Part shown: in pieces, positions 9,200 through 31,974 of the stretch
Position numbering within the stretch: the stretch's first letter is position 1
How the letters are laid out: each line of letters opens with the position of its first letter
Origin: Candidatus Eisenbacteria bacterium
GTDB lineage: Bacteria; Orphanbacterota; Orphanbacteria; Orphanbacterales; Orphanbacteraceae
Assembly (NCBI GenBank): GCA_016867715.1
Contig: VGIW01000015.1
Coordinates: forward strand, 1-52,282
DNA: 52,282 nucleotides
Direction: 5' to 3'
Made by a program: the position numbers and the translations under genes
Notes under the pieces: model-generated
Seen by the model: the letters and a program-made list of their open reading frames with translations, nothing else
The model's database searches: none
What the model was told of the DNA's origin: nothing

Positions 9200-10201
9200 C
9201 TAGCGGTACATCGACTTGACCGCTCCCCAAGAAGTGTTCTCGGTCGCGGTTTCGCCGCAGCCGATCGAGAGCGCTCCGATGAGCCCGCAGGCGGGATCGG
9301 AGACGGCCGGGCTCGACCCGCTCACGGTGAGGTCGTCGCATCCCTCCGGCGAGCAGAACAACGGATCGGCGGAGACGCTCCCCTGACCCTGCACGACGCC
9401 GTGATAGTTCCCGGCCGGGTTCCCCCAGACGATCGAGCAGAGGTCGCTCGGCGTGCAGTTCTGCGCCCAGACGCCCGGGCCGCCCGTGTTGAAGGCGACG
9501 ATGTTGTTCCGCAGAGCCGGCGACGTTCCCGCCAGCGAGATGCCGGAGCCGTACCCAGGAGCGCACGAGTTGTAAGCGATCGTGTTCTGTTCCACGACGG
9601 CGCCCGTGCAGAACGCGAGATGAATGCCTCCGCCGAACGAGGTCGCCTGGTTGCCGCAGATCACGTTCCATCGGATGACCGGGGTCGATGTCTGCGCGTA
9701 GATCCCCGCCCCCTCATGAGCCGTGTTCTCCGTGATCCGGCAAAACTCGATCGTGGGAGAAGCCATGTTGTCGACGAAGATCCCTCCCCCGCGAATGGAG
9801 GCGCGGTTCTGGCGGATATGGCAATTCGAGATCACCGCGGTCGACCCGGACTGGAAGTAGATCCCCCCGCCCTTCTGATAGCTCCCGTTCCGGACCGTGA
9901 AGCCCTCCAGGCGTGTGGAGGAGGTCGCGTTGTAGGGGACAAAGACCGTGATGTAGCTCCCCTTCCCGTCGATCGTCGTGAACTCGGGGCCCGCGCCGAT
10001 GAGCTGCACGCCCGCCTTGAGAGAGATGTTCTCGCTGTAGGTGCCGGGGCCCACCTGGACGATATCCCCCGATCGAGCGGCGTTGATCCCCTTCTGGATC
10101 GTGTTGTACGACCCGGGAACGAAGATCGTGGCCGCGCCCGCGGGCCACGCCGCGGCGAGCAAGAGAAGCCCGAAGAGAAGGACCGTGGACGCTTTCTTCA
10201 T
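9200..10201 (-). CDS. Exported parallel beta-helix protein with WGxVK C-terminal tail
   Basis: 333 residues. The ATG at 10201 is chosen because AGGAGGTGCGCATC lies directly upstream; an in-frame GTG at 10210 falls inside that ribosome site. Signal peptide MKKASTVLLFGLLLLAAAWPAGA. Residues 25-290 are a right-handed parallel beta-helix (IFVPGSYNTIQKGINAARSGDIVQVGPGTY entry motif, then GGGIYF/GGGIFV/GAGIYA rungs). A cap module follows (SADPLFC, SPAVSDPACGLIGA, GCGE) that also occurs in the beta-helix protein at 32688-34724. The last 15 residues, ATENTSWGAVKSMYR, are shared in pattern with two other exported proteins in this window and may be a sorting tail. No catalytic residues of pectate lyases were recognised. 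Probably a cell-surface or secreted protein; ligand unknown. Confidence 0.88.
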   Translation of the reverse strand: MKKASTVLLFGLLLLAAAWPAGAATIFVPGSYNTIQKGINAARSGDIVQVGPGTYSENISLKAGVQLIGAGPEFTTIDGKGSYITVFVPYNATSSTRLEGFTVRNGSYQKGGGIYFQSGSTAVISNCHIRQNRASIRGGGIFVDNMASPTIEFCRITENTAHEGAGIYAQTSTPVIRWNVICGNQATSFGGGIHLAFCTGAVVEQNTIAYNSCAPGYGSGISLAGTSPALRNNIVAFNTGGPGVWAQNCTPSDLCSIVWGNPAGNYHGVVQGQGSVSADPLFCSPEGCDDLTVSGSSPAVSDPACGLIGALSIGCGETATENTSWGAVKSMYR

Positions 10202-10630
10202 GATGCGCACCTCCTGACGGCCGCCCCGTTTCGTTCCCGCGATGCGGCCGAGCCTTTCCGGATTTGTCGCGCCCCGCTCGGAGGCCCCGGTTTCGCGCCT
10301 CGACCACGGGTGAGAGCGAGCCTGCCCGGTTCTTCGTTATGGCCGGGCGGTTCTCAGCGAGCAATCGGGGGAGCAAGGAATGTGCCAGGGAGCGTCCGCA
10401 GACCAGCGGTTCGGGAGTCCTAACTTACCTATTTGAATATACTAAGGTTCTGTTGAGGTCGCTAGGAGAAGCGGCTGTTTTTTTGCCACTCTCCTGCGTC
10501 CGTGCACCGTGCAGATTCCGTCTCGCGCGTTCAATCGTGCAATGTCCGGTTCTCGCCATCCACGAGCTTCTTCTTGGCATCGTCGAGAGGAAGGACAACC
10601 TTGACGGTGCGCGCTCTTCCTCGCTCGGCG

Positions 10631-10787
10631 GGCCGACCTCCCCCTCGGGGCCTGATCGACGAGGCCGGGTACCCGCACCTCGACGATGGAGCCGAAGGCT
10701 CCCGCACCAGGGGGGCGGGTGGCCGAGCGATTGGAGCCGAGAACGCGCGGGGCGCGTTCGGAGGCGTCCCCGAGGAGGAGGTCGGCC
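10631..10787. ncRNA. Candidate multi-branched structured RNA
   Basis: A 20-base arm at 10631-10650 is complementary, with one mismatch, to 10768-10787. Between the arms are three further hairpins: CGAGG..GGGTACCC..CCTCG, GGAGCCGAAGGCTCC and GAACGCGCGGGGCGCGTTC. This closing stem with three internal hairpins looks like a folded RNA or a cruciform-forming element. It does not match any RNA family I recognise, and the transcribed strand cannot be told. Confidence 0.3.
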
Positions 10788-11060
10788 TGACGAGCGGGCC
10801 CGCCCATGCTCCTTCTTGGCGACAGACACCTTCTTGGGGAAGAGCTCCGGAGCCGAGGGGGTGAGGCTCGCTTGCTCAAACATGCCGCGCGCGGCGCGCG
10901 GCAACTCGCCGCTCTGCCTCCCCCCCGTCTCCGGAGCAAGACAAACTTGCTCCTGTGGCACCCGCCGTCCGACGACAGAGAACGCAACCACGGCGGGTGA
11001 CCGCGGCAGGTGTCCGCGAGAAGCGCAGCCACCAAGGCTCGGCGACTTCAATCACTCGTC

Positions 11061-11230
11061 CTTGTAGGCGCGACCGAGGCCGCCGAGGGAGTCCCCGGAG
11101 CGCGAAGCGCGAAGGGGGAGCATCGAGCGGACAGCCGCGGGCACGACCGAGCCGGGGCTCCCCGTCGCGAAGAGCGACGGGGGGGCGAGGAAGCTCCTTC
11201 GCGCATGCGGCGCGAAGGAGAGACCCGCCG
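11061..11230. repeat. Diverged member of the dispersed intergenic repeat family
   Basis: It shares GTAGGCG..CGACCGAGGC and CCCCGGAGCGCGAAGCGCGAAGG with the copies at 51665-51849 and 42747-43007, and ends with a GGAAGCTCC-hairpin-GGAGAGACCCGC variant (perfect CCTTCGCGC/GCGCGAAGG stem at 11195-11217). More diverged and rearranged than the other copies. Confidence 0.45.
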
Positions 11231-11351
11231 TACGACAACAGACGACGCCGCCACAGCGGGTGGGCGCGTCCGTCCGCCGTCCGTGAACCTCGAATCCCAA
11301 GAGCCTAAATCATTGATGGATTATGGAAGAAAACCGCTGCGAGGGAGAAGA

Positions 11352-11428
11352 TGGCGGGGCCGACGGGCCTCGAACCCGCGACCTCTGGCTTGACAGGCCA
11401 GTGTGCTAACCAACTGCACCACGACCCC
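11352..11428 (-). tRNA. tRNA-Asp (GTC)
   Basis: On the minus strand a complete cloverleaf runs from 11428 to 11352: acceptor GGGGTCG paired with CGGCCCC, anticodon stem CTGGC/GCCAG with loop CTGTCAA (anticodon GTC), T arm GCGGG-TTCGAGG-CCCGT and an encoded CCA end. It lies 54 bases downstream of the GH3 gene on the same strand and may be co-transcribed with it. Confidence 0.95.
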
Positions 11429-11482
11429 GACCATGAGCTGTCGTTACGCTGAGAGGAAGGTAACAGACGAACCGCCCTTCTG

Positions 11483-12976
11483 TCAACGACGGCCGAAGGG
11501 GGAAATTCCGAGAGGCCTCTTTCTTCCGTCGAGGATTTCGAAGAGCGCGGAAAGGGTATCCCTCCCGAAGTCGAACGCGAAGAGACGCTCGACCCCTCGG
11601 ATTCGGAGGAGCGGCTCCGGATCGGCGAGGGCGACCGCGACGAGCCGCCGGCGCCCCTCCATCAACAAGCGGAGAAGGCGCGATTGCCCTGCGGGGAGCT
11701 CCCCGCGCGCGAGAAGCCCGAGGACGACGGCTTCGGCTCTTCCGGCCTCTCGCGCGACCGCGCGGCACTCCGCGCCTGACGGGTCGGCGGGAAAGAGATG
11801 GACTGCCTCCCGTCGAAAACGCTCCCCGAAGCGCTCGTCGATCCCCGAGAGATCGAGGCTGATTCGAATCCGACCGGGAAGAGCCTCCGGGAGAAAGGCG
11901 ACCCAATCCCCCTCGGGAAGCGGGCGGAAGCTCCCCGGGCCGGCCCACACGATCCCGCGGGCCGGGTCGGCCCGCACGGCGGCGCCTCCCGCCGGCCGAT
12001 GGAGCCTTCTCCCCGCAAGGGCTCTCACCCGCCGCGCCGCCGCCCGAGCCGCCCGGGGATCGACCCGCCCGCTCCGAATCGCCTCGGCCAACCGGCGCGA
12101 CGCGCGCCTCCCCGCCGCGAGGGAGCGGGTCACGCAGAAGAGATCGACCCCGGCGGCGAGCGCCTCCGGCAGGAACGTCTCGCCGGGAAAGCCGGCCATC
12201 TCGACCGCGTCGCTCATCACGACACCCCGGAAGCCGAGCCTTTCGCGGAGAAGCCCCCGGATCACGGACTCCGAAAGGCCCGCCGGCAGCGCCCCGGTCC
12301 CAAGGGCGGGATAGGCCACGTGCGCGATCATCACCGCCGGGAGCCCCGCGCGGAACGCCGATCGGAACGGGGGGATCGACGAGCCGAGGATCGCCCGCGC
12401 GCCCCGCCGATCGATGGGAAGGGTGAGGTGCGAGTCCGACCGCACGCTCCCGTGACCAGGGAAGTGCTTCCCGACCGGGAGTACGCCCCCGCGAAGATAC
12501 CCTCGAACGGCCGCCGCGCCGAGCCGCGCGACCCGCTTCGGATCGCCGCCGAACGAGCGCGTCCCGATCACCGCGCTCCCCCCTCGGTCCTCGACGTCGA
12601 GCACCGGCGCGAGGTTCATGTTGATCCCGACCCGCCGAAGGAGCGACGCCTGTCTCGCCGCCCACTCCCGAACGGCCCGCTCGCTCCCGGCGGCCCCGAG
12701 GTGCATCGCCGAGGGAGGGCGCCCCGCGATCGCGGCGGCCGCGCACACGATCCCCCCCTCCTGGTCGACCGCGACGAGCGGCGGACGCGGGAGGAGAGAA
12801 CGCGCCTCGGCGATGAGATCTTTCGCCTCTTCCGGATCCCTCAGGTTGCGCGGAAAAAGGACGAGGTGGCCGACCGACCCTTCCGCGAGGATCTCCTTCT
12901 CCCGGGAGGTCAGCCTCCGGCCGGCCGGAGCGGCCATCACGAGCGAAGAGGCGATCGCCGCTTCCGATTCCGGCAT
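11483..12976 (-). CDS. nagZ: NagZ-like glycoside hydrolase family 3 (beta-N-acetylhexosaminidase)
   Basis: 497 residues from ATG 12976, which overlaps the last base of the upstream SpoIID stop. The N-terminal ~330 residues are a GH3 barrel with NagZ hallmarks: VAVDQEGGIV, the KHFPGHGSVRSDSHLTLP active-site loop carrying the catalytic His/Asp dyad, and SDAVEM holding the probable nucleophile Asp. NagZ cleaves GlcNAc from GlcNAc-anhydroMurNAc muropeptides, the product then handled by AnmK, whose gene is in this operon. Single-domain NagZ is about 340 residues; here about 160 extra C-terminal residues form a second domain, as in longer Gram-positive or Bacteroidetes members. No signal peptide is evident, which suggests cytoplasmic action. 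Specificity is inferred from motif and context. Confidence 0.88.
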   Translation of the reverse strand: MPESEAAIASSLVMAAPAGRRLTSREKEILAEGSVGHLVLFPRNLRDPEEAKDLIAEARSLLPRPPLVAVDQEGGIVCAAAAIAGRPPSAMHLGAAGSERAVREWAARQASLLRRVGINMNLAPVLDVEDRGGSAVIGTRSFGGDPKRVARLGAAAVRGYLRGGVLPVGKHFPGHGSVRSDSHLTLPIDRRGARAILGSSIPPFRSAFRAGLPAVMIAHVAYPALGTGALPAGLSESVIRGLLRERLGFRGVVMSDAVEMAGFPGETFLPEALAAGVDLFCVTRSLAAGRRASRRLAEAIRSGRVDPRAARAAARRVRALAGRRLHRPAGGAAVRADPARGIVWAGPGSFRPLPEGDWVAFLPEALPGRIRISLDLSGIDERFGERFRREAVHLFPADPSGAECRAVAREAGRAEAVVLGLLARGELPAGQSRLLRLLMEGRRRLVAVALADPEPLLRIRGVERLFAFDFGRDTLSALFEILDGRKRPLGISPFGRR

Positions 12977-14373
12977 CAACGGCTCTCCTCGAGATGCTTC
13001 CGGGTCGCGTGCTCCAGCCGCGCGCCCGGATAGTAGTGGCGCAGAATCTCCTCGTATCGGTGCCCTTCGTCCGCCCTCCCGATCGCACCCCACTGGCACA
13101 TGCCGACCCCGTGTCCGTTCCCGCGCCCCTCGGCGACGATCTCTGCGGCGAGACGCCCGGAACGCTTGACATGCAAAGTAAACGCGGCGCTCCGGAGGAT
13201 TCCGCCTCCCCGGGGCCTTCGGAGAACCCATCGCACGCGATCGCCTCCGATCCGGACATCCGCCTTCTCCGTCACGAAGAGCGTGGAGAGGACACGCCCG
13301 GACCGGCCGACCTCCTCGATGCGGACGTCGCGAAGACGGCCGAGGCGCTCCGGGCTCATCCCTTGTTCCGCCGCGAGATTCCGGACGATCTCGACGAGAT
13401 CGCTCCCCTTCCAGCGCTCCGTCCATCGGAAGTGGGGCGATTCCCTGCAGAAGGCGCGCGCGGGCGCTTCGCTCCCGTCCGGCCCGTCGCCCGTCGAGCG
13501 AAGATAGGGAGCCGGCTCCCGGTTGAACCAGACCTCCTCGACCGGCGCGCTCCGTCCGCCGCAGGTCGAGGAGTAGTAGGCGCGAACGAGCGCCCCCTCG
13601 TACGAGAGGATGACCCCCGCCGTCTCCTCGAGCGCCCGATCGACGACCGCGTCCGTCCGTTCGAGCCCGCGGTAGACCTGATCGCTCTCCGTCGCGACGA
13701 GATCCCACGGCGCGTCCTCGGCCGCGGCCGCGACGCGCCCGAGCGCGTATGTCCGCGCGGCGACCGCCTGCGCCTTCAGCGCCTCGAGCCTCTTCTCCGA
13801 AAGCCATCCGATCTCCCACGGGACGACCCCCCGGAGGTAATCCTCGAGACCGATCCCGTTGATCGCGGAGAGGCCGCGCTCCGATGCGACGAAAACAAGC
13901 GTCCCCGCGTACGGATTTCCTTCAAGCGTGAAAGGTTCAGCCCGCTCGGGAAGCACGCTCACGGGGGAAGGGACGGCGATCGGATCGAACCGCCCGCGCA
14001 TCTCGATTCCTCCGCCCGCGGAGAGCGCGAACCGAAGAAGGCTCCCCTCGGCGACCGCGATCTCCCCGCCCGTCCAGCGAAGGAGCCCGCCGCTCGGAAG
14101 GCCGGCCTCGAGTGAGGGCGCGTCCATGCGGAGCGCGACGCGGAGCGGTCCGATCGGCCGGCCGCCGTCCGGTTTCCCATGCCGCGCCGGGTCCTCTCTT
14201 CCCGGCCGCTCGCGCTCGGTGTCTCGCTTCTTGCCGACCCCGCTCCGCGTGGTCCAGCCTTCGTCGGTCGGGCGGGAGCCGGCGGGGGGGCGCGGCGAGC
14301 AGCCGCCCAGAGAGACAAGAAGCGCGGCCGCGAGCGCGAGCGAGGCGCGGACGAGCGGGGCTCGGCGGCTCAT
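12976..14373 (-). CDS. SpoIID/LytB domain lipoprotein
   Basis: 465 residues from the ATG at 14373, which overlaps the anmK stop (ATGA). The N-terminus is a lipoprotein signal (LALAAALLVSLGGC, lipobox Cys near residue 25). A SpoIID/LytB domain follows, with the signature YLRGVVPWEIG...EALKAQAVAARTYAL near residues 170-210 and a C-terminal GHGVGMCQWGA. SpoIID proteins are lytic transglycosylases that cut glycan strands bare of peptides and leave 1,6-anhydroMurNAc ends; LytB members enhance amidases. Its position between the anhydroMurNAc kinase and NagZ suggests that it supplies substrate to this pathway from the periplasmic face. The long linker (residues 30-90) is polar and charged. Confidence 0.85.
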   Translation of the reverse strand: MSRRAPLVRASLALAAALLVSLGGCSPRPPAGSRPTDEGWTTRSGVGKKRDTERERPGREDPARHGKPDGGRPIGPLRVALRMDAPSLEAGLPSGGLLRWTGGEIAVAEGSLLRFALSAGGGIEMRGRFDPIAVPSPVSVLPERAEPFTLEGNPYAGTLVFVASERGLSAINGIGLEDYLRGVVPWEIGWLSEKRLEALKAQAVAARTYALGRVAAAAEDAPWDLVATESDQVYRGLERTDAVVDRALEETAGVILSYEGALVRAYYSSTCGGRSAPVEEVWFNREPAPYLRSTGDGPDGSEAPARAFCRESPHFRWTERWKGSDLVEIVRNLAAEQGMSPERLGRLRDVRIEEVGRSGRVLSTLFVTEKADVRIGGDRVRWVLRRPRGGGILRSAAFTLHVKRSGRLAAEIVAEGRGNGHGVGMCQWGAIGRADEGHRYEEILRHYYPGARLEHATRKHLEESR

Positions 14374-17239: not shown

Positions 17240-17286
17240 GCGCAACGCGAACACCCCCCCGGCGGATCCTACCGGAAATCAGCGAA

Positions 17287-17334: not shown

Positions 17335-17337
17335 ATA

Positions 17338-17410: not shown

Positions 17411-20400
17411 CTACCGGAGGATGACCGCCTTCCCGAGCGCTTCCGCGCGCTCGCCCGGACGGACCGCAACGAGGCGATAGAGATAGACCCCGTTCCCGAC
17501 CCGATCCCCGTCCTGGTCGGTCCCGTCCCAGACGTTCGGGTTCTCGTTGTACCCGATCCTTCCGGAGAGCCCCTCGAGCACGCGGATCCTCTTGCCGGTC
17601 GTCGTGAAGACCTCGGCGCGCACCGCGTCCGCGCCGTCGGTGAGATGGTAGTAGAAGCCGGTCGCATCCTCGGTCGGGTTCGGGTGGTTCAGAAGATCGA
17701 CGATTCGGAAGCGCTCCTCGACGCGGAAGCGGAACGTCTTGCCGAGGGCGCGCACGAAAACATGAAGCGCGTGATCCCCGGAGGAGAGCGCCGGGCGAAG
17801 CGCGCCGAGCCAGCGGAAGGAGTCGAGCGGGCGAAGTGAATCGGGCTCGATGGCCGCTCCGTCGAGCGTGAAACCGATTTCTTCCTCGGCGACCGGGACC
17901 GGGGTCGTGATCTCTGCGCGGATGAGCGGCCCCGGCGAGACGTAATCCCCGTCCCGGATCGCGATCCCGTCGAACGTGAGCGCGACCTGCACGAACACTC
18001 GAAGCGTGAAGGTTCCCTCCCGCCCCGCGCCGTCCCTCGCCCGGAAGACGATCGTGTACTCCCCGAAGCGGACCTCGGGGCGATAGACGATCTTCCAGCT
18101 CCTTCCGTCCTCGGGAAGCCCGTCGTCGGGCGAGACCTCGTAGAGCGCCGTGTCGAGCGGCTCCCCCCCATCGAGGACCGCAAGAGACGAGCGGTCGATC
18201 CGGACCTCGTCGTGAACGCGCGCGACGATCGTGACCGGTCCCCCATCCGCACGCCCGAGAAGCGCGCCTCCGTTCTCGACCGGAACGCCGTCCACGGTCA
18301 CCTCGAAGTGGGGCGGCCGCGCGTCGATCGCGAGAAGAGGATCCCCGAAGAGCGCCTGCCGGCGAAGCACCAGGAAGCGTTGGAACGAGGGGATCGACGC
18401 GAAATCCATGAGACCGAGCGCGAAGATCTCCCCGAGAGTCCAGCGGGGCGATCCGGCGTACCAGGGAGGGAGCGCGTCCGGATCCGCGCCCGGAACGACG
18501 CCCGGCGTTCGGAAGAAATACTTGAGCACGCTATCGTTGAGGTCCAGATTTCTTATGAGCTCTTCGGTTCCGGTCGAACCGAAGGTCGCCACCGCCCCTC
18601 CCCGGTCCGAGAGCATCATCTCCTCGGGGATCGACTCGTACCCGAGCGAGAGGAGCCGGTCGAACTCCGAGATCGAGCATCCGTATCCCATGAAGATGTA
18701 GGGACGGCCCGCGTGGTTGCTCTTCTGCCGGATGTCCTGCGAGACGTTCTGCCCGAGCGGCCGGTAGCTCGGCCCGTTTCGAAGGATCACCTCGTGCGTG
18801 AGGACGTTTCGGTTCCCGTGCCCCTGAAAGTTGATGAGCCCGACCCCGGGTCCGTTGATCTGGTCGAAGAGCGCGCCCGAGACCGCCTGCCGGCAAAGCC
18901 CGATCGTGCAGTCGATGTCCGCCCGGTTCGCGTTCGCCGAATCCCCGTCGTAAGGGCAGAGCGGATGGAAGACATCGGTGAAGCGGGAGAGGAAGATGTT
19001 CACCGTATCGATCCCCTTCGCGGCGGTCTCCTTGATCTCGCGGGCGAACTCGGCCGAGTTCCTCTCGAACTGGACCTGGAACTCGTTCTGGAGGGCCTCG
19101 CCTTGGGCGACCCACGCGTCGTCCGCGAGGAAGAGAACCCGCGAGCGCCACGTGTCCTCGGGGCGTATCGTCTCGTAGGCGATCGTCTTCTCGACGAGGC
19201 GCGCCGCCTCCTCGGCCGTGCCGACTGGGAACCGTCCGAGAAGGAGATCCGGGAGCGGATCCTGGGGGCCGTCGAGAAGGACGTAGGCGAAGTCGCTTGC
19301 GTCCCAATGGTCTCCGCTCACGCGCGGGTCGGCGACCTTTTGGAAGACGGGACGGGTCGGGATGAAATCGAAATCTCCCGGCTGGGCGTTGCGCGCGATC
19401 CCCTTGAAGTCCTCGTATCCGTCGCCGACGAGAAGAACCGCGATCGGGGGCGAGGCCCACCGATGGAACGCGTAGCGGATCCAACGGGCGATCGCGGTCG
19501 TGTCCTTCACGCCTCCGTTGAACTCGTCGTACACGTCGCTCACCGGCACGATGCGCGTCCGATAGCCTTGCGCTTCCCGGTGCGAGGCGAGCGGCTCCAT
19601 CGCCGCGGCGAACGCGTCCCACGCGAGAACAAGAAAGTCCGCCTCTTCGGAGGCTCGGTCGGTCGGCGCGTCGGCCGCGATCGACGAGGCGGTGATCCGT
19701 TTCGCGCGCTCGAGCGCGCACGCGGCGTAGCGCTTCGTCGCGCCGGCGGAGTCCTGAAAGACGATCGCGTACCCGCCCCCCGGCGCGGGCGACGCATCGG
19801 CGAGGATCCGCGCGCTTCGATACGGGTCGGTCACGTCGAAGAGGAGAACGTCGGGCCCCGCGAACCCGTCGACCTCGATCTGGAAACGCCCCGTCGCGCC
19901 GCCGCTCGAGAAGAGGAGACAGCCGTCGATCGCTCGATAGAGGAAGTTCGCGTGGACCTCGTACCAATCGAGGAAACCCCGCGCCTGCGGAACTTCATTT
20001 CCCTGCGGGGTCGCCCCGCGCGTTCCTTGATACAAGAAGCGGTTGACCCCGGCGGCGAGCGAGGAGGCGGGGCGCGTCCGCTCCGCGGGGAAGAGGCGCG
20101 GTCCGATGCTGTCCACGACCCCCCGGAACGCGGTGTCCGCGTCCGCCTGGTTGATGAGGATGTAGCGATCGTAGGGATAGGTCCCCTCTCCCGGCGCTTT
20201 GACGGAGACGGCCATCGCCTTGATCCCGTACGGGAGCGAGACGTCCGGCGCGGGGAGCGCGATCTCGGTCATCAAGCTCCACGTCTCGTACGACTTCGGG
20301 AAGTAGAGATCGACCGTATCCGAGGGGGTGCTGGTGTTGTAATGCTCGTCCACCTCCCAGCGGATCGAGTCGGGGAACGAGACGAGAGGAACAAGGCCTG

Positions 20401-23287: not shown

Positions 23288-24620
23288 GCCGCGCCGGAAC
23301 CTCTTTGCCCTTCTTCTGATGAATCGCGCTGCCGACCTCCTCGGTCCTCCACGTCTGCGGCTCCTCTTCGGGCACCGGCTCCCCGCGCTCCAGATAGGAG
23401 ATCGCGCGCCTCGCCTCGTACCCCTCCCAACCGTACGGCGCCATCTCGTTGACGCGCTTCCACGCATCCACCGCCTCGGCGTACTTCCCTCTCTTCTGGA
23501 GGATGTTGGCGTAGTCGATCCAGCCGTGGAGATAGTCCGGATCGACCTCGATCGCGCGCCGCACGTAGAGCTCGGCCTTCTCTCCGTCCCCGAGATCCCG
23601 GTAGCACATGCCGAGGTTCCTCCAGGCGAGCTGGTTCCTCTCGTCGAGACGACCCGCGGTCTCATAGAAAGGGATCGCGCCCGCGGGGTCGTTTTCCATC
23701 CGGTAGATGAGCCCGAGCTGAACGAACGCCTCCACGTGAACGGAGTCGAGGAAGATCGCAAGCTCGAGAAAGCGCTTGGCGGCCTGTTTTTCCGGAACGC
23801 TCCGATGTTGGATCCCGAGGTAGAGGAGTTTTCCCGGGAGACGCGGGTCGATCGCGTGCACGCGCTCCCGGAGACGCGCAGCCTCCTCCTTCCGGCCGAG
23901 CCGCTCCTCGACGAGCGCGAGAATCGCGAGCGCCTCCGCGTCCTCGGGGGTCTCCCGGAGTAGCTCATCGAGAACCCCCTTCGCCTCGGCGAGATCTCCC
24001 GCGTAAGCGAGCGTCGTGCCGAGCTCGAGCCGGACGGGGAGCGACCCAGGGTCGAGACGGTGCGCTTCCCGCACCTCCGCTTCTTCCTCCCCCCCGCGCG
24101 CCCTCGTCCGGTGCACGAGCCCGAGGTAGAGCCGGGCCATCGCGCGTTCCGGATCGAGCTCCACCGCCCGCCGGAGCGCCTCCTCCGCCGCGAGGAATTG
24201 GAAACCCTCGAGAAGCGAGCGCCCGTATTCCTCCCACGCGCGGGCGAAACCCGGGTTCTCGGCGAGCAAATCATCGAAACCTTCACTTTTTAGCTGGGAA
24301 CGTCCGAGAAGAACGACGCGGGCCAGGCGGACCGCTGGGTTGCTCGGATCCTTCAGGACGAGCCGCTCGTACTCCTGGCGAACCGTCTCCCTCTCCCCCG
24401 CCGCCGCGCGCAAATGCACGTAGGCGAGGTGCGCCTCGATGTCGTCGGGAACCTCCGCGATGCGCGCCTCGAGGAGAGCGCGCGCCTCGTCGACGCGCCC
24501 GGCGCGATGGAGGGCGGCCGCCTCGCGCACCGCGTCTTCGGCTCCGAGCGCCCCGGGAGCCGCAAGCGCGCACGCGATCCACGCCGCGAGTAGAACGCTT
24601 CCGAACCCGTTCCGAATCAT
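23268..24620 (-). CDS. Exported TPR-repeat protein
   Basis: 450 residues from ATG 24620, which overlaps the sulfatase stop (ATGA). Signal peptide MIRNGFGSVLLAAWIACALAAPGALGA. The rest is a solenoid of tetratricopeptide repeats with the usual A-x-x-x-Y/L-x-x-A-L/I..P pattern, for example EEALRRAVELDPERAMARLYLGLVH and KAELYVRRAIEVDPDYLHGWIDYANIL. The C-terminus is charged (QKKGKEVPARPTDETR). It is the last gene of an operon whose upstream members are a membrane glycosyltransferase and a sulfatase-fold protein that each carry their own TPR domain, so all three may assemble through TPRs in the periplasm. No enzymatic motif was seen. Confidence 0.85.
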   Translation of the reverse strand: MIRNGFGSVLLAAWIACALAAPGALGAEDAVREAAALHRAGRVDEARALLEARIAEVPDDIEAHLAYVHLRAAAGERETVRQEYERLVLKDPSNPAVRLARVVLLGRSQLKSEGFDDLLAENPGFARAWEEYGRSLLEGFQFLAAEEALRRAVELDPERAMARLYLGLVHRTRARGGEEEAEVREAHRLDPGSLPVRLELGTTLAYAGDLAEAKGVLDELLRETPEDAEALAILALVEERLGRKEEAARLRERVHAIDPRLPGKLLYLGIQHRSVPEKQAAKRFLELAIFLDSVHVEAFVQLGLIYRMENDPAGAIPFYETAGRLDERNQLAWRNLGMCYRDLGDGEKAELYVRRAIEVDPDYLHGWIDYANILQKRGKYAEAVDAWKRVNEMAPYGWEGYEARRAISYLERGEPVPEEEPQTWRTEEVGSAIHQKKGKEVPARPTDETR

Positions 24621-27022
24621 TGAACACCCTCCATGTTCGCGCGCGCGGACCGGATGTTCTCCCGGGCCGTCGCGGCGCTCGGCGAGTCGGGCGCCGCGAG
24701 CGACGCCTTCTCCCACGCCTCGATCGCTTGGGCAAGATTCCCGTGGGCCGCCTCCGCCACCCCCAGGTTGAGATAGATATCGGGATCCCGTCGGTCGAAC
24801 TGAAGCGCGAGACGATACTGTTCAGCCGCCTCCCGGTGCTTCCCTTCCTCGCGCAGCAGGTTGCCGATCCCGTACAGGCCCTTCGCGAACCGCGGGTTCA
24901 CCTCCACCGACTTGTTCAAGTACTCGGCGGCCAGCCGCCGATCCCCGCGCTTCTTGGCGAGAATCGCGATGTTGTAGTAAGCCTCCACGAGCGTCGGATC
25001 GCTGTGGAGCGCCTTTCGATACTGATCGACGGCCCGCTCGATCTCTCCCGCTTTCTCGTATGCGAGCCCGAGATGGTAGTAACCCTTGGCGGCTTCGTTC
25101 GGGCTCTCGATCGCCCTCTTGTAGTACTCGATCGCCTCCGGGAGACGGTTTTGCTTTTCCGCGACCTTTCCAAGACCGATAAGGGCGACCCCGGACGTCG
25201 GCACGATCTCCATCTCCTTCCGGTACTCCTCCTCCGCCTCCGCGAAGCTCCCCCGCGCAAGGGCAATCTCCCCGAGGCGCGCGTGCACCCTCTGGGCGTG
25301 CGGGTCCGCATCGAGAACCGAGTGAAGGATCTCGGCCGCCTCGTCCGCCCTCCCCAGCCGGAGGAGAGCGTAGGCGCGGTTGCTGAGCGTGGGGAGGGTC
25401 CTCGCTCCCAACTGGATCGCCTTCGTATACACGCTCTCCGCGCGCGCGGCGTCCCCCATCGCGAGGAACCCGTCCCCGATCGAGGCGAGAATGCGCGGGC
25501 TCGCCGGGTCCTCCTTCTCCAAATCGACCAACGCCTGGAGCCCTCCCGGGAAGTCTCCCCGGTCGAACAGGTTGAAGGACGCGAAGTACTTCCTGAGAAG
25601 GTCGATCCGATCCTTTGGATCCGGAAGATCTTTGTACGAAATTTCTTCGTCGACCTCCGCTTCTCCCGCGAGGTAGCCGAGCGCCTCGAGTTTCCGCCGA
25701 GTCTCCTCGTCGACGGTGATCCCGTCGGTCTCTCCGCGGCGCCGATTGTCCTCCGCGATGATCTCCTCCAGTAGAGCCCGCATCTCCGCGGCGATCTCAG
25801 GCCTCTCCGCGATCCGGTTCGCGGTCTCCCCCGGATCGACGGCGACCTCGTAGAGCTCCTCCCTCGGGAGAAGGATGAACTTCCACTGGTCGTTGGAGAC
25901 CGCGCGCACCTCGCTCCACCCGAAATCCTCCCGCGAGGAGATCGACTCGGCGTAGTGGACGAGCCCGAGCGGCGCGTCCGGATCGAGGAGGAGGGGAACG
26001 AGGCTCACCCCCTCCGCCTCGGGCATCCCCGGAAGGCCGAGGAGGTCGAGGATGGTCGGGGCGGCGTCTACCATCCGGACGATGCTCTCCACCACCGTCC
26101 CCCGCCGGAACGGCTTCTCGCGGAAGGCAGGATGATCGGGCCACCGGATGATGAACGGCACGCGGATCGTCGATTCATACGTGAAGGTTCCGTGCGTCAC
26201 CTCGCCGTGGTCTCCGAGCCCCTGCCCGTGATCCCCGACGAGAACCACGAGGGTCTCTTCCGCGAGCCGGAGCCTCTCGAGCGCGTCGAGGAGACGCCCG
26301 ATCTCACGGTCGGTGTACGCGATCTCTCCGTCGTACAGGTTCGAGGCGTAACGCGTGAGGAACGGCTCCGGAGGTTCGTACGGCTGGTGCGGATCGAAGA
26401 GATGGACGAAGAGGAAGAACGGCTTCCCCTCCTTCTTCTCCAGCCACCGGATCGCGCGGTCGATCGTGACCTCCGCGCGCACCTCGGGGATCCCTCTTTG
26501 GAGCGGGGACTCCCTCTCCGGGGGGAGGGAATCGACGTACGTGTCGAACCCGCGTGCGAGGCCGAAACGGGCGTCGAGGACGAACGCGGAGACGAACCCC
26601 GCCGTCCGATACCCTTCCGCGCGGAGCCTGTCGGCCAGCGTCTCCTTCCCCTCGGGGAGGCGGTACGTCCCGTTGTTCCGCACCCGGTGCCTGTAGGGGA
26701 ACTGGCCGGTGAGCATGCTCGAGTGCGAGGGGAGCGTGAGCGGAGCGACCGACGCCGCGCGGGCGAAGCGGACCCCCTCGGCCGCGAGCTTGTCCATCCG
26801 AGGCGTCTCGATTTCTTTATATCCATAGCATCCGACGTGGTCCGACCGGATCGTGTCGATCGAAAGAAAGAGGACCGAGAGACCGGTCCGAGCGGACGGG
26901 GCGCCGTCCGGCTTCTGCTCGCGGACGTCCGCCCGGTCCCCGGCCGGCTTCTCCCCGCCCCCTCCGCAAGCCAAGGCGGAGACGAGAACCACAAGGACGA
27001 TCGCAAGGCTTCTTCGGATCAA
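24617..27022 (-). CDS. Sulfatase/alkaline-phosphatase-fold lipoprotein with C-terminal TPR domain
   Basis: 801 residues from a TTG at 27022 overlapping the upstream stop (TTGA). A lipoprotein signal (LAIVLVVLVSALAC, Cys19) anchors it. Residues 46-400 are a sulfatase-fold domain: metal ligands in LFLSIDTIRSDHVGCYGY and VLVGDHGQGLGDHGEVTHG. The activation site that reads C/S-x-P-x-R in true arylsulfatases is here T95-L-P-S-H, so no formylglycine can form; Thr is the nucleophile in phosphoethanolamine and lipoteichoic acid transferases of the same fold, which suggests phospho- or phosphoglycosyl transfer or hydrolysis rather than sulfate removal. Residues 470-790 hold about nine TPRs. Substrate unknown. 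It sits in an operon with a GT-C glycosyltransferase, so the target may be a surface glycan. Confidence 0.85.
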   Translation of the reverse strand: MIRRSLAIVLVVLVSALACGGGGEKPAGDRADVREQKPDGAPSARTGLSVLFLSIDTIRSDHVGCYGYKEIETPRMDKLAAEGVRFARAASVAPLTLPSHSSMLTGQFPYRHRVRNNGTYRLPEGKETLADRLRAEGYRTAGFVSAFVLDARFGLARGFDTYVDSLPPERESPLQRGIPEVRAEVTIDRAIRWLEKKEGKPFFLFVHLFDPHQPYEPPEPFLTRYASNLYDGEIAYTDREIGRLLDALERLRLAEETLVVLVGDHGQGLGDHGEVTHGTFTYESTIRVPFIIRWPDHPAFREKPFRRGTVVESIVRMVDAAPTILDLLGLPGMPEAEGVSLVPLLLDPDAPLGLVHYAESISSREDFGWSEVRAVSNDQWKFILLPREELYEVAVDPGETANRIAERPEIAAEMRALLEEIIAEDNRRRGETDGITVDEETRRKLEALGYLAGEAEVDEEISYKDLPDPKDRIDLLRKYFASFNLFDRGDFPGGLQALVDLEKEDPASPRILASIGDGFLAMGDAARAESVYTKAIQLGARTLPTLSNRAYALLRLGRADEAAEILHSVLDADPHAQRVHARLGEIALARGSFAEAEEEYRKEMEIVPTSGVALIGLGKVAEKQNRLPEAIEYYKRAIESPNEAAKGYYHLGLAYEKAGEIERAVDQYRKALHSDPTLVEAYYNIAILAKKRGDRRLAAEYLNKSVEVNPRFAKGLYGIGNLLREEGKHREAAEQYRLALQFDRRDPDIYLNLGVAEAAHGNLAQAIEAWEKASLAAPDSPSAATARENIRSARANMEGVQ

Positions 27023-29145
27023 CGGGATCCTCCTTCCCGCCCCTCGGCCAGGGCGGCTTCGGCCATCCGGATGTTCGCGATCACCGGGCTCTCCGGATCA
27101 TAGTCGAGAATCGTCCTCCACGCCTCGATCGCCGCGTCGACCTCTCCTTTGTGAAAGCGGAGAAGACCGATGTTGTTCCAGGCCGCGGAGTGGCGCGGGT
27201 CGATCTCCACCGCCCGCCGGTACTCCCGCATCGCCTCCTCGTCGCGCTCCTCCTTCTCGAGAAGATCGCCGAGGCGGTTGTGGAGATCCGCCGTGGACCC
27301 GATCCGCGCGATCGCCTCGCGGACCGTCCGCTCCGCCTGCGGGAGGTCCCCCCCCCGCTCGAGGGCGTTCACGAGGTTCCGAACGATCCTCTCGTTCCTC
27401 GGGTCCATCTCCACGGCGGCGGCGTACTCCGCGGCCGCCTCGCCGAAGCGGCCCATGTCGTAGAGCGCGTTCCCGAGGTTATAGAGGAACTCGGGCGACG
27501 CGGGCCGGAGATGGATCGCCTCGCGGTACTCCTCCACCGCCTTCTCGTTCTCCCCGAGCGAATGATACACCGTGCCGAGGTTCGCGCGAGCCTCCGCGAA
27601 CGCGGGGGAGCCTCGGATCGCTGCTCGGTACTCCTCCGCCGCATCGGCCGCTCTTCCCTCCAGCTGCAGGAGGCGCCCGAGCCCGTAGTGCGCCGTCGGG
27701 TATCCGGGAAGAAGCCGGAGCGCCTCGCGATAGGCGGCCTCCGCCTCCTCGCTCTCCCCGCTCGCCAGAAGCCCGTTCGCGAGGTGCACGAGCGAGTAGG
27801 CCCGCGCGATCCCCTTCCCCGCGCCGAAGGAGCCCCCGTTCACGAGGACGAAGAGAAGGGCGAGAGAGCCGGCCGCCCAGAGGCGGGGGGCCCACGCGCC
27901 TCTTCGAAGAACGCCCGCGAACGCCGCCGTCCCGACCGCCGCCGGCGGGATGAGCGCGACGGAGAAGGGGATCCGGTACCTCGAGTGCGTGTAGAAGAGA
28001 AGAGCCGAGAGGAACTGCGCCGCGAGAAAGAGGAGGACCGGCGCCCCCCTCCGCCGGCGGAGAAGGACCGCGAGACCAAGCGCGCCGAGCGGAGCGATCA
28101 CGCCGAACACGAACGGAGCACGCCGGAGCGCGGGGATCTCCTCTTGAAAAAAGGAGAGATCCGCGTTGTCCGGCGCCTCGGCGTTGTTCCAATGGAGCAC
28201 CGCTTTTCGGCCGAGAAGAGCGAGATACGCGCCCGGGTCGCCGCGGATCCAATCGAGCGCGCGGCGCGTCCAGTACCACGACACCTCGGACGCCTTCAGC
28301 GAGCGCCCCGCCCCTGCCTCGGCAATCCGCCGGGAATCGCGGATGTTGATGTTCTCGGGAGAGAGAGGGATCGGCTCGTCGGGGAACGCGAAGACCCCGG
28401 CCGCCTTCTCGTTGTTCCCCATGTAGAAGTTGATCCCGCTGTGCGAGGAGACGAGGACGAAGTCATTCCCGCGGACGAGGTTTCGGATCGTCGCCGGGGA
28501 GACGGCGAGGAGTAGACCGGCGAGAAGAAGAAGGGCGGCCCGCGCCTTCCTTGTTTCCTCGCGCGCAAAGAGGATCCAACCGAGAAGAAACGGAAAGAAG
28601 AGGAGGAGGTTCCCTTGGATCAGCGTTCCGACGCCGAGGAGGATCCCCGCGGCGAAAAGCTTCGCGTATGAAGCGCCGGGACGGCGCCGGAGAAGGAGCG
28701 CGAGAAGAAGGAGATTAACGAAGACCCCGATCGCCGTCGGGAGAAGGAACGCCTCGTAGAAGAGCGCGGGGCGGTAGAGCCCGCCGGCGAGAAGCGCGAG
28801 AAGTCCGGCCGGCGCGCCCCCGAGGCGGCGCCCGATGTCGAAGAGGAGGAGCGCGCTCCCGATTCCGAGAAGGAGCTGGAAAAGGACGATCGGAACCGGC
28901 CCGGCGCCGAAGACCTTGTAGAAGAGGGCGAGGGAATACGGGTAGAACGGGTTCGTCGCGAAGACGTCGAGCGGATACCCCTCGCCCGCCGCGATCGCGC
29001 GGGCCAGCCGGTCGTTCACCTCCGCGTCCACGGCCGGATGAAGGAACAGAGGGTGCGCGCGGACCTCGGCGAAGTAGGCGACCCGGAGACCAGCCGCGAG
29101 AAGAAGAGCCCCCGCAAGGAGGAGCGCTCCCCTCCTCGCCCTCAC
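27019..29145 (-). CDS. GT-C (PMT/ArnT-like) membrane glycosyltransferase with C-terminal TPRs
   Basis: 708 residues. The GTG at 29145 is chosen because it overlaps the upstream stop (GTGA) and opens directly into a membrane helix (RRGALLLAGALLLAAGLRVAYF). About ten transmembrane segments occupy residues 1-430. The first periplasmic loop carries acidic residues (HPAVDAEVNDRLARAIAAGEGYPLD) in the place of the catalytic Asp of dolichyl-phosphate-mannose-type GT-C enzymes (PMT_2/GT39/GT83). Residues 450-700 are about seven TPRs. GT-C enzymes use polyprenyl-phosphate sugars to glycosylate protein or lipid on the periplasmic face; the TPRs could recruit acceptor proteins. Acceptor and sugar are unknown. 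Confidence 0.8.
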   Translation of the reverse strand: MRARRGALLLAGALLLAAGLRVAYFAEVRAHPLFLHPAVDAEVNDRLARAIAAGEGYPLDVFATNPFYPYSLALFYKVFGAGPVPIVLFQLLLGIGSALLLFDIGRRLGGAPAGLLALLAGGLYRPALFYEAFLLPTAIGVFVNLLLLALLLRRRPGASYAKLFAAGILLGVGTLIQGNLLLFFPFLLGWILFAREETRKARAALLLLAGLLLAVSPATIRNLVRGNDFVLVSSHSGINFYMGNNEKAAGVFAFPDEPIPLSPENINIRDSRRIAEAGAGRSLKASEVSWYWTRRALDWIRGDPGAYLALLGRKAVLHWNNAEAPDNADLSFFQEEIPALRRAPFVFGVIAPLGALGLAVLLRRRRGAPVLLFLAAQFLSALLFYTHSRYRIPFSVALIPPAAVGTAAFAGVLRRGAWAPRLWAAGSLALLFVLVNGGSFGAGKGIARAYSLVHLANGLLASGESEEAEAAYREALRLLPGYPTAHYGLGRLLQLEGRAADAAEEYRAAIRGSPAFAEARANLGTVYHSLGENEKAVEEYREAIHLRPASPEFLYNLGNALYDMGRFGEAAAEYAAAVEMDPRNERIVRNLVNALERGGDLPQAERTVREAIARIGSTADLHNRLGDLLEKEERDEEAMREYRRAVEIDPRHSAAWNNIGLLRFHKGEVDAAIEAWRTILDYDPESPVIANIRMAEAALAEGREGGSR

Positions 29146-30452
29146 GGCTCTCCCCGCCGGAGCGGCGGCTCCCCGGGGCCCGGCTCTTCGGAGCACGCGG
29201 CCCGGTAGCAGCCGGCGCGGAGATCCCCGAGAAGCGGAGAGCGCGCGTGAAGCCGATGGTCCGTTGCCTCGTCGCAGAAGCCGGGGTCGAGAACGCGGAC
29301 GCCCTCGATCGGCGCGGCGCCCTCCGGCCCCTCGGCCGGAGCGCACGCCCAGACGACGTTCCCCTCCGCCTCGAGCGACGCCTTTCCTTCATGCATCAAC
29401 CAAGGTCCGGTCGAGCGAACGACGAGGTTCCGGCGGATCGCCGCGCTCCCCGTATCCTCCACGCGGATCCCTCCCATGAAGCCGTGGTTCCGGACGAGCG
29501 TGTTCTCCTCGATCCGGGCGCTCGACTTCCAGGAGTAGAGCGACGCCCCCTGTTGGCCGCAGTGGTTGTCGAAGGCGAGGTTCCGCTCGATCCGCCCGTC
29601 GACCTCTTGGAGGAACGAGACCGCCCCGCCCCGCTTCATCGCGAAGTTCCCCTCGAACAGGTTTCCGAGGACGGCAGCGACGCACTGTTTGAGCGCGGCG
29701 ACCCCGCCCCCCGAATCGAAGACGACGCGGTTATCGACGAAGCGGTTCTCCGCGATCTCGACCCGCGCGCGATCGAGAAGGCAAAGGCCGCCTCCGTGAA
29801 AGACCGCCGAGTTCCCCTCGAACAGGTTCCTCTCCACGCGGCCGGATGCGCCCGCGAAGAAGCACGCGCCCCCGCCGTGGTAGCGCGCGTAGTTGTCCCG
29901 GATCACGCAGTCGCGGATCACCGCGTGCACGCCGCCATAGACGAAGACCCCCCCGCCGTTCCCCTCGAAAACCCATCCGTTCCGGATCGTGAAGCCCTCG
30001 AGGAGGATCTCCTCTCCGCCGTCCCCGTAGGCGGTCACGACCGAACGATCCGCCCCCTCGCCGTCGATCACGGTCTCTCGGGCGCGCGGATCTCTCTCCC
30101 GGAAGGAAGGGTCCCAGCCCCCGAGGAGGATCTCTTCTCCGCCGTCCCCGTAGGCGGTCACGACCGAACGATCCGCCCCCTCGCCGTCGATCACGGTCTC
30201 TCGGGCGCGCGGATCTCTCTCCCGGAAGGAAGGGTCCCAGCCCCCGAGGAGGACGAGCGACTTCGAAAGGTAGAGGGTTTCGCGGTAGACGCCCTCCGCG
30301 ACGAGGAGCGTGTCGCCCGCCGCCGCCGCCTCGGCCGCTCTCCCGATCGTCGCGTGCTCGGCCGGGACGCGGAGAACGCCCGCCCGCGGGGCGCACGGAA
30401 GCGCGAGAAGGAGGAGAAGAAGAACCCGCCGAAGCCGCTCCGGTCGAGACAT
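29142..30452 (-). CDS. Exported parallel beta-helix protein with internal 41-residue duplication
   Basis: 436 residues from ATG 30452 (MSRPERLRRVLLLLLLALPCAPRAG, signal peptide). A beta-helix follows: VLRVPAEHATIGRAAEAAAAGDTLLVAEGVY entry motif as in the other two beta-helix proteins here, then rungs such as GFTIRNGW, NGGGVFVYGG, YHGGGACFF and FHGGGLCLL. Near residues 69-150 the block LLGGWDPSFRERDPRARETV to GDGGEEI occurs twice in tandem. A cap-like segment (LDPGFCDEATDHRL) precedes the Pro/Gly-rich C-terminus (GPGEPPLRRGEP); it has neither the WGxVK nor the FlgD-like tail. First gene of the operon with the glycosyltransferase, sulfatase-fold and TPR proteins, and possibly their substrate or partner. 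Confidence 0.82.
   Translation of the reverse strand: MSRPERLRRVLLLLLLALPCAPRAGVLRVPAEHATIGRAAEAAAAGDTLLVAEGVYRETLYLSKSLVLLGGWDPSFRERDPRARETVIDGEGADRSVVTAYGDGGEEILLGGWDPSFRERDPRARETVIDGEGADRSVVTAYGDGGEEILLEGFTIRNGWVFEGNGGGVFVYGGVHAVIRDCVIRDNYARYHGGGACFFAGASGRVERNLFEGNSAVFHGGGLCLLDRARVEIAENRFVDNRVVFDSGGGVAALKQCVAAVLGNLFEGNFAMKRGGAVSFLQEVDGRIERNLAFDNHCGQQGASLYSWKSSARIEENTLVRNHGFMGGIRVEDTGSAAIRRNLVVRSTGPWLMHEGKASLEAEGNVVWACAPAEGPEGAAPIEGVRVLDPGFCDEATDHRLHARSPLLGDLRAGCYRAACSEEPGPGEPPLRRGEP
30001..30246. repeat. In-frame 123-bp tandem duplication
   Basis: Units 30001-30123 and 30124-30246 are identical except for one base (CTCCTCTCC against CTCTTCTCC) within the beta-helix gene. The period of 123 bases is 41 codons and keeps the frame. 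Near-identity points to a recent event or to an assembly artefact. Confidence 0.9.
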
Positions 30453-30523
30453 GAGGCGATTATAGCCCGCGCGCGAAAGGCGGGGCAAGAGAACGCGCCG
30501 GCCGTCCGCCCGACGGGCGCACG

Positions 30524-30553
30524 AAAAAGGGCTCCCGCGCGCGGCGGAAGCCC
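30524..30553 (-). terminator. Rho-independent terminator
   Basis: Minus strand hairpin GGGCTTCCGC/GCGGGAGCCC (30529-30553) followed by TTTTT (30524-30528), 25 bases beyond the stop of the 30578-31237 gene. Confidence 0.8.
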
Positions 30554-30577
30554 CCACTCGGAAAGAAGTAGACTTCG

Positions 30578-31237
30578 TTACCGGAAGAGCTGCTTCACGC
30601 TCCCCCAGCTCGCGGGCTCCGTCGCCGCGGGGTAGGAGCACGTCATCCCTTCCTCGCTAAATGGGAGTGACTCCAAAGCGGACGACGAGAGGACCGAGGT
30701 CGCATCCCCATCTATAACCCAGAGAATCGCGCCTTCGGCCGCCACGTTGAAGGTCAGGCTTCCGACCTTGGCTGGGAAAGCCTCGTAAGGAACTCCCCCG
30801 CTCTGGAGATTCCAGTCGATTCCCTGAACCAGCCAGCACTTGTAGTTCGGGTAAGCGCTCGTGATCCACGGGCTGACCTCGATGGGGAAAGTCCCCGTGT
30901 CCGAGGCGAAGGTGGTGAACTGAGTCCAACCAGCGGCCGGGTGATTCGAGGTCCAGAGCGCCGTCCCAACCAGGCTCCCCTCCGTTACGCAGAACGTGCA
31001 GCCGTAACCGTAGAACGGCGGACAGTCGTCGTAGAACACGTTCACCGTGACCTGCGTGCCGATCTCGCCGGCGCCGAACGTGCGCCCCATGTCGAAGTCG
31101 CCCGGCTCGCAGTCGAGGTCTGCGTTCACGTCCAGGCCGACGAACCGTTCCGCCGCGGCGAACGAGAAGGCGAAGAGGAGAAAGAGCATCGCGGCGGCCC
31201 CCGCCGCGAAACGCTTGACATACGAACGACCACGCAT
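30578..31237 (-). CDS. Exported protein of unknown fold with WGxVK C-terminal tail
   Basis: 219 residues from ATG 31237, preceded by AAGGAGCGGAATC. Signal peptide with a basic start and hydrophobic core (KRFAAGAAAMLFLLFAFSFAAA). The mature part has four Cys clustered in YDDCPPFYGYGCTFC and a further pair later, suggesting disulfides and periplasmic or extracellular location. The segment is rich in beta-type residues (TQVTVNVFYDD, ILWVIDG) and could be an Ig- or cohesin-like sandwich, but no family was recognised. It ends ATEPASWGSVKQLFR, the tail shared with the proteins at 9200-10201 and 31417-31974. It has its own strong promoter and terminator, so it is a single-gene unit. Confidence 0.82.
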   Translation of the reverse strand: MRGRSYVKRFAAGAAAMLFLLFAFSFAAAERFVGLDVNADLDCEPGDFDMGRTFGAGEIGTQVTVNVFYDDCPPFYGYGCTFCVTEGSLVGTALWTSNHPAAGWTQFTTFASDTGTFPIEVSPWITSAYPNYKCWLVQGIDWNLQSGGVPYEAFPAKVGSLTFNVAAEGAILWVIDGDATSVLSSSALESLPFSEEGMTCSYPAATEPASWGSVKQLFR

Positions 31238-31310
31238 GATTCCGCTCCTTTCCGAGTGGTACCGAGCAATGGGGACGAGGCGCCCCCCGCGAACCCGTCG
31301 GGACGCGGCT

Positions 31311-31340
31311 ACTATAGGCAGTGGGCGTGAGAAGTGTCAA
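31311..31340 (-). promoter_or_regulatory. Strong sigma-70-type promoter
   Basis: Minus strand TTGACA (31335-31340), 18-base spacer, TATAGT (31311-31316); about 68 nt of leader to the ATG at 31237. Confidence 0.8.
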
Positions 31341-31366
31341 CCGGAAAAGTGACGGGGAAACGGAAA

Positions 31367-31393
31367 GAGGCGGTCCGTACGCCGGACCGCCTC
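31367..31393 (-). terminator. Rho-independent terminator
   Basis: Perfect GAGGCGGTCCG/CGGACCGCCTC hairpin at 31367-31393, followed on the minus strand by a T-rich tract (TTTCCGTTTCC), just after the stop at 31417. Confidence 0.7.
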
Positions 31394-31416
31394 CTCTTCT
31401 TGGATCCGAGAAGGAT

Positions 31417-31974
31417 TTACCGGAACAGGCTCTTCACCGCGCCCCAGTTGGTCTCCTCGGTTGCGATCGAACCGATCTGAACCGTGCCGAGCACCGTCCC
31501 GTTGTTGTCCCAGCTGTACGTGTAGAAGCTGAGCGTCAACACGCCCGAGCCCTCGAGCATGTACAGATCGTCGATCGACTGATCGACCGCCGCGTGGTAA
31601 GTCACCCTCGCGACCTTATACGGGAACATGATCGGAACGTCGAAGGTGAGGTTCTGTCCCTGGGCCGTGATGCAGTTCTGGGCATCCGGCGGCTGGAACG
31701 GGAACGACCAGCCTCCCCCCGGCGAGTAGGCCACGAAGCCCTGGTACTCGAGGGAGCGATCAAAGTTGCAAATGAACGCGCCCCAAACCCAGGTGCCCTT
31801 GCCCTGCGGACCGTACAGCCAGATATCGACGCCCACGTAGTCGCTCTGGTTAACCTGGATGTAGTCCACCCCGTTCATCGGGTTGCCGTCGAGATCAAGC
31901 TCGAGGCGGTACTGGCCCATGCCGGCGGACGCGAACAGCAACAGGGCCGCCGCCGCAACAAAAGCCTTCTTCAT
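31417..31974 (-). CDS. Exported protein of unknown fold with WGxVK C-terminal tail
   Basis: 185 residues from ATG 31974, preceded by AAGGAGCAACTGCGC. Signal peptide MKKAFVAAAALLLFASAGMGQ. The mature protein (YRLELDLDGNPMNGVDYIQVNQSDYVGVDIWLYGP...) reads as a single beta-sandwich with many aromatic residues, and was not assigned to a family; a cohesin-like or carbohydrate-binding fold is possible. It ends ATEETNWGAVKSLFR, nearly the same tail as two other exported proteins in the window, although the bodies do not align. It has its own promoter and terminator. The codons of the tail differ between copies, which argues for selection on the peptide and not recent DNA duplication. Confidence 0.82.
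   Translation of the reverse strand: MKKAFVAAAALLLFASAGMGQYRLELDLDGNPMNGVDYIQVNQSDYVGVDIWLYGPQGKGTWVWGAFICNFDRSLEYQGFVAYSPGGGWSFPFQPPDAQNCITAQGQNLTFDVPIMFPYKVARVTYHAAVDQSIDDLYMLEGSGVLTLSFYTYSWDNNGTVLGTVQIGSIATEETNWGAVKSLFR

Follow-up and report, generated by a model that had tools for sequence, protein, structure and literature searches.

C-terminal tags of the sortase, exosortase/archaeosortase, rhombosortase, and myxosortase systems all combine a motif with a transmembrane segment and a basic end (PMC11980579). Signals of types A, B, and C of the type IX secretion system (T9SS) take the form of beta domains (PMC10202324, PMC12618676). The smallest C-terminal domains (CTDs) known for this system span 43 to 55 residues in three strands (PMC11969387), and for one CTD the final 22 residues were enough for secretion of GFP (PMC10202324). 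Here, we analyzed a 52,282-nucleotide stretch of DNA from a Candidatus Eisenbacteria bacterium (contig VGIW01000015.1; hereafter, the window), in which three exported proteins end in a shared tail of about 15 residues with the consensus T-x-E-x-x-[ST]-W-G-x-[IV]-K-x-[LM]-[FY]-R. This tail, termed the WG tail, is undescribed and resembles none of the known protein-sorting signals. It is found genome-wide, on hundreds of exported proteins with dissimilar bodies, in several uncultured phyla of the Fibrobacteres-Chlorobi-Bacteroidetes (FCB) group (Eiseniibacteriota, Krumholzibacteriota, and relatives). We interpret it, with a probability of roughly 0.7, as a sorting tag for exported proteins in the form of a C-terminal docking helix.

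All three window proteins lie on the minus strand, at the coordinates and with the signal peptides and C-terminal ends that an initial annotation of the sequence had reported. The first (9200-10201) is an exported right-handed beta-helix protein of 333 aa (Pfam PF13229, E = 2.7e-16), with the tail ATENTSWGAVKSMYR and stop codon at 9200-9247. The second (30578-31237, 219 aa) ends in ATEPASWGSVKQLFR and a stop (30578-30625), and the third (31417-31974, 185 aa) in ATEETNWGAVKSLFR and a stop (31417-31464); each tail was identified by translation and pattern search. The codons of the three tails differ (TGGGGAGCGGTCAAGTCGATGTACCGCTAG, TGGGGGAGCGTGAAGCAGCTCTTCCGGTAA, and TGGGGCGCGGTGAAGAGCCTGTTCCGGTAA), again as previously described. 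AlphaFold modeled the body of 31417-31974 as a beta fold (pLDDT > 90) whose best Foldseek match was a cohesin (5nrk, E = 3.8e-7, TM[target] = 0.79). The body of 30578-31237 gave a weaker model, with cohesins again the top, albeit weak, structural match. With tails and signal peptides removed, these two bodies aligned by hhalign (probability 96.8, E = 2.9e-10), and their homologs adjoin each other at two further loci (L092 and L168). They are remote homologs, and the window therefore holds two unrelated body types rather than three. Thus, the suggestion that all three bodies are unrelated stands for the beta-helix protein, which is unrelated to both cohesin-like bodies, but not for the cohesin-like pair.

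To define the tail, we aligned 190 distinct examples. These read T/V/S, A/P, V/T, E (92%), two variable residues, S/T (96%), W, G, x, I/V/L, K, x, L/M, Y/F, and R (99%) at the end, with W, G, and K partly imposed by the search expression. The logo carried 44 bits of information across the 16 positions. In L223 (genome G002), the Gly is replaced by Ser or Thr in genes ending at 8405, 9639, and 16784 (SSWSDIKEMFR, SSWSDVKQLFR, and STWTDVKEMFR). Because such variants escape the patterns used, all tail counts given here are lower bounds. The position of the tail was assessed without bias across seven genomes of the window's phylum with a pattern lacking the stop codon: the codon directly following the match was a stop in 183 of 208 cases, which bears out the expectation that matches fall at C termini. 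The exceptions listed for the window's genome are proteins that end 1 to 4 residues further on (e.g., on C13 and C18). Among the loci fetched for closer analysis, 205 tails were exactly terminal, 9 were followed by at most five residues, and 3 were seemingly internal, one of these being cut by a contig end; these loci came from a stop-containing pattern, and the count of 183 of 208 is thus the unbiased test. On contig C13 of the same genome (L221:10116-12617), three tandem paralogs bear extended tails, WGKVKGLFRKVL, WGGIKNLFRRVFR, and WGQVKKLFRDLF, with one additional helical turn beyond the usual Arg.

The tail is carried by exported proteins with widely differing bodies. By a crude rule, signal peptides were found in 172 of 189 carriers (at least 91%) versus 183 of 510 neighboring open reading frames (ORFs); of the 17 carriers failing the rule, one is a false match and several are shortened or have an evident signal peptide that the rule missed. 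After removal of signal peptides and tails, the bodies fell into 59 BLAST clusters. Their domains include beta-helix, CHRD, plastocyanin-type cupredoxin, FG-GAP, PKD, PPC, CBM20/X25, choice-of-anchor V, W, X, and J, and the MXAN_6652 MYXO-CTERM family. For example, the protein at L224:7750-8355 consists of a complete choice-of-anchor V domain (residues 15 to 175 of 201) followed by the tail. It lies in a region (L224:7750-9686, genome G029) encoding three tandem choice-of-anchor V-type proteins, all with a CxxCH motif near the N terminus and a WG tail. At least two families of lipoproteins also carry the tail, with a clear lipobox in L097, L098, L106, and L108 (Eisenbacteria metagenome-assembled genomes) and in L005 (the window's own genome). 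The WG tail thus behaves as C-terminal sorting tags do in general: (i) a single tag occupies the extreme C terminus of many nonhomologous exported proteins, and (ii) their bodies bear other anchors elsewhere (choice-of-anchor V/W/X/J, MXAN_6652, and T9SS-tagged homologs). These properties support the proposal in the initial annotation that the tail is a short tag for sorting, anchoring, or processing.

We considered whether the tail might be a miniature dockerin that docks into the cohesin-fold bodies of 31417-31974 and 30578-31237 to form a surface lattice. Dockerins bind via helices, the 31417-31974 body folds as a cohesin, and cohesin-like and T9SS-tagged cohesin-like proteins cluster together in L226. 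However, only a minority of the tailed proteins have cohesin-fold bodies, those seen were confined to the window's phylum, and the docking interface is hypothetical, which makes this explanation very unlikely.

To determine how broadly the tail is distributed, we searched genomes with several patterns. In the window's own genome (3.5 Mb), the pattern W-G-x-V-K-x-x-[FY] without a stop gave 11 matches, some 40 distinct tails on exported proteins emerged once a stop was included in the pattern, and the strict tail plus stop gave 33 matches; the reversed pattern gave 0 in both the first and the last of these searches. The strict tail plus stop was found in 7 of 7 genomes of the window's phylum (10, 21, 23, 25, 32, 33, and 39 matches), 20 of 20 genomes of a second phylum (12 to 62 matches each), and 77 of 80 genomes of a third (0 to 34 matches each, with 29 to 34 in G088, G089, and G098 and none in G056, G058, and G093). 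The reversed-pattern control gave no match in any of the 107 genome rows from these three phyla. With this control and the 59 body clusters, an origin by chance or by homology of the bodies was rejected. A stricter pattern run against about 85,000 species genomes returned at least 120 loci in at least 57 isolates. Among the matches listed, each labeled locus belonged to Eisenbacteria, Krumholzibacteriota, Latescibacterota, or Gemmatimonadetes, and about half of the loci were labeled only "bacterium"; judged among these matches, absence of the tail from other lineages is likely but not proven. The same stricter pattern had no match in 2.9 million viral contigs.

The tail did not correspond to any known tag. 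NCBIfam and Pfam models left it unmatched in 146 tailed proteins and in 10 isolated 39-residue ends, the isolated ends giving one subthreshold match (E = 0.18) to an unrelated actinobacterial family. In a literature search, we found no description of the motif, nor of T9SS or sorting in these phyla. The tail resembles LPXTG (sortase) signals in being a C-terminal sorting tag, but it lacks both LPXTG and a hydrophobic segment, and its hosts are Gram-negative FCB bacteria. Like PEP-CTERM (exosortase), it is a C-terminal tag on many unrelated exported bodies and shows a superficial E-P-x-[ST]-W likeness; however, PEP-CTERM requires a transmembrane helix and an Arg cluster, and the tail has neither. 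MYXO-CTERM (myxosortase) and GlyGly-CTERM (rhombosortase) likewise occur on dozens of proteins per genome in restricted lineages, and some tailed bodies match MXAN_6652, but both tags are tripartite with a transmembrane segment, and MYXO-CTERM also has an invariant Cys. The transmembrane segment plus basic cluster that marks all four classes is absent from the tail, and the last 26 residues of the 190-tail logo contain no hydrophobic segment. T9SS type B and C CTDs are alternative signals, type B with its own shuttles, but they are beta domains of about 100 residues or longer rather than short helices.

Type A CTDs (TIGR04183/PF18962/FlgD_ig) offer the closest parallel. They too are C-terminal, occur on Sec-exported, mostly beta-rich proteins with homologous bodies in the same genomes, and have a hydrophobic-hydrophobic-basic C terminus. 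In contrast to the tail, they comprise 43 to 82 residues with an Ig-like or reduced beta fold and motifs B, D, and E. The conserved part of the tail is about 16 residues, well below the roughly 43 residues of beta structure expected of such a domain; AlphaFold models it as a short helix, it has no such motifs, and neither TIGR04183 nor FlgD_ig matched the 10 isolated tails at E up to 10. Having neither a transmembrane segment nor an Ig-like beta fold, the tail is therefore not an LPXTG, PEP-CTERM, GlyGly-CTERM, MYXO-CTERM, or T9SS CTD signal, and the earlier contrast with LPXTG, PEP-CTERM, and type IX domains holds.

The tail nevertheless occurs in genomes that encode the T9SS, as expected of T9SS substrates. 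SprA_N of the translocon was detected in 37 of 38 tail-positive entries (34 of 35 distinct genomes) versus 0 of 14 controls, and type A CTDs were present in 35 of 35 genomes, each with between 53 and at least 120 copies. FlgD_ig and Por_Secre_tail were not found in the 146 tailed proteins, and TIGR04183 was not among the 25 families listed of 26 matched; the two tags are therefore mutually exclusive on this set. Homologous beta-helix bodies bear one or the other. In the window, 32688-34724 (plus strand) encodes an exported beta-helix protein whose C-terminal domain is of T9SS type A (FlgD_ig PF13860, residues 613 to 665). This protein and a WG-tailed one encoded by the same genome aligned at 37% identity (483 columns, E = 3e-73) up to a shared CGLVGA[WF]G[LI]GC, beyond which the tags differ. 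The WG-tailed partner is encoded directly beside another beta-helix protein, which is T9SS-tagged and nearly identical to it at the mature start (L227:9821-11266 and 11281-12930). Along L226, genes for tailed cohesin-like proteins and for T9SS cargo alternate. Across loci, T9SS cargo was encoded next to tailed genes in 26 of 362 cases (7.2%) versus 21 of 548 (3.8%) at two to four genes away (P = 0.03). The T9SS CTDs of these genomes end in K-hydrophobic-hydrophobic-[LV]-[LV]-[RK], recalling the K-x-[LM]-[FY]-R of the tail, and both tags have Lys at −5/−6. Each genome also encodes 8 to 17 PorV-family proteins, the window's own genome having 11. Also in the window, 17411-21511 (minus strand) encodes a 1,366-aa C25 peptidase of the gingipain/PorU family with a C25 propeptide and a terminal FlgD_ig T9SS-type domain; it is either a protease among the T9SS cargo or itself the sortase.

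These associations are consistent with the tail being a very short new T9SS signal, which the SprA/PorV translocon or a PorV-family shuttle would read and a C25 sortase would cleave, and the sufficiency of 22 CTD residues for GFP secretion adds to this case. Against it, the tail is a predicted helix without CTD motifs, and even the short CTDs described so far are beta structures of 43 to 55 residues. Type A CTDs still number 132, 128, and 83 in the three genomes where no tail was detected; because such genomes retain full T9SS cargo sets, the T9SS alone is insufficient as an explanation. In the phylum of G018, the number of PorV-family proteins was unrelated to that of tails (ρ = 0.03), and no expansion of PorV paralogs in step with the tail was seen there; across all 27 genomes the correlation was weak and confounded by phylum (ρ = 0.39, P = 0.04). 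We regard a T9SS signal of this kind as tentative, somewhat short of even odds. A dedicated receptor or anchoring system outside the T9SS, such as a periplasmic or outer membrane scaffold that binds the free C-terminal helix, would fit the helical and soluble character of the tail, its presence on lipoproteins, and the large independence of tail number from T9SS cargo number, as in the zero-tail genomes and in G025 (1 tail, at least 120 CTDs); the two numbers correlated only weakly (ρ = 0.38, P = 0.03). We rate such a system only slightly less likely than the T9SS signal; against it, nearly all carriers also encode the T9SS, and neighborhood clustering yielded no candidate.

The conservation pattern and AlphaFold indicate that the tail is probably a short amphipathic helix on a flexible linker. 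Logo information is low at −12, −11, −7, and −4, a spacing that corresponds to one helix face. In both proteins modeled with AlphaFold, the tail formed a helix set apart from the body, at residues 177 to 183 of 31417-31974, beyond a low-confidence linker, and at residues 210 to 218 of 30578-31237. A beta-strand was rejected, as conservation does not alternate (strand periodicity, P = 0.79). An amphipathic helix could in principle bind membrane or lipopolysaccharide with no protein receptor, in keeping with its Trp, its aromatic and basic residues, and its terminal position. This is unlikely, since the exact residues (near-invariant W, K, and R) and their register are conserved well beyond amphipathicity, and the helix is too short for a sole anchor and occurs on lipoproteins. 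A short C-terminal tail on an apparently flexible linker could also mark proteins for quality control or proteolysis by a periplasmic protease. We consider this the least probable of the explanations, because PDZ-type periplasmic proteases recognize hydrophobic C termini, whereas the tail ends in Arg, and such a tag would be improbable on dozens of structural, surface-type proteins.

We return to the docking-helix sorting tag. Under this model, tailed proteins leave the cytoplasm through Sec, as the signal peptides in their sequences show. Each would then consist of a folded body, a short flexible linker, and a predicted 9- to 10-residue amphipathic helix with a Ser/Thr cap, which would present the conserved Trp, Ile/Val, Lys, Leu/Met, Phe/Tyr, and C-terminal Arg. 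A putative receptor in the periplasm or outer membrane would recognize the free C-terminal helix and deliver its bearer to the cell surface or outer envelope, or hold it there, as suggested by bodies that elsewhere carry T9SS, MYXO-CTERM, or other anchors. On small proteins, the tail would stand in for the type A T9SS domain. The likeliest route across the outer membrane may be the T9SS with a specialized shuttle or adaptor, which we rate a little below even. It is also possible, at somewhat less than even odds, that the tail instead marks a separate pathway of Gram-negative candidate phyla, with a soluble C-terminal helix of about 15 residues, a free Arg, and a receptor of its own, independent of sortase-type transmembrane tags and T9SS Ig-like domains.

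Several observations weigh against the docking-helix model. The tail helices were predicted with low confidence (pLDDT of about 55 and 45 in the two models), and a periodicity test over ten positions, although maximal at 100 degrees, was weak (P = 0.13). Tailed lipoproteins are already anchored at the N terminus, and membrane anchoring alone is therefore not the general role of the tail. That the outer envelope is the destination of tailed proteins is itself something we infer. Clustering of 757 neighboring ORFs revealed no receptor or processing enzyme, and a conserved neighbor as partner was rejected on this basis; the clusters comprised T9SS cargo, beta-helix relatives, sulfatases, ABC proteins, and a few PorV-like genes. 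Thus, neither neighborhood clustering nor PorV-family counts bore out the dedicated co-occurring processing protein anticipated by the initial annotation.

The window holds two further features. Just downstream of the two tailed cohesin-like genes lies a pair of minus-strand genes encoding a sulfatase-tetratricopeptide repeat (TPR) fusion (24617-27022) and an adjoining PMT-type glycosyltransferase-TPR fusion (27019-29145). The minus-strand gene at 29142-30452 encodes a beta-helix protein without a WG tail and contains an in-frame tandem duplication at 29993-30253 (123-bp unit, 98% match, about 2.1 copies), representing either a recent expansion or an assembly error.

C-terminal tags determine what bacteria display at their surface, and every class known so far has revealed an enzyme or route of secretion that was new (sortase, exosortase, rhombosortase, myxosortase, and T9SS/PorU). 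The WG tail is abundant in environmentally widespread uncultured phyla, departs from both known tag architectures, and is not represented in the protein family libraries searched. It thus provides a handle for predicting surface proteins across hundreds of genomes.

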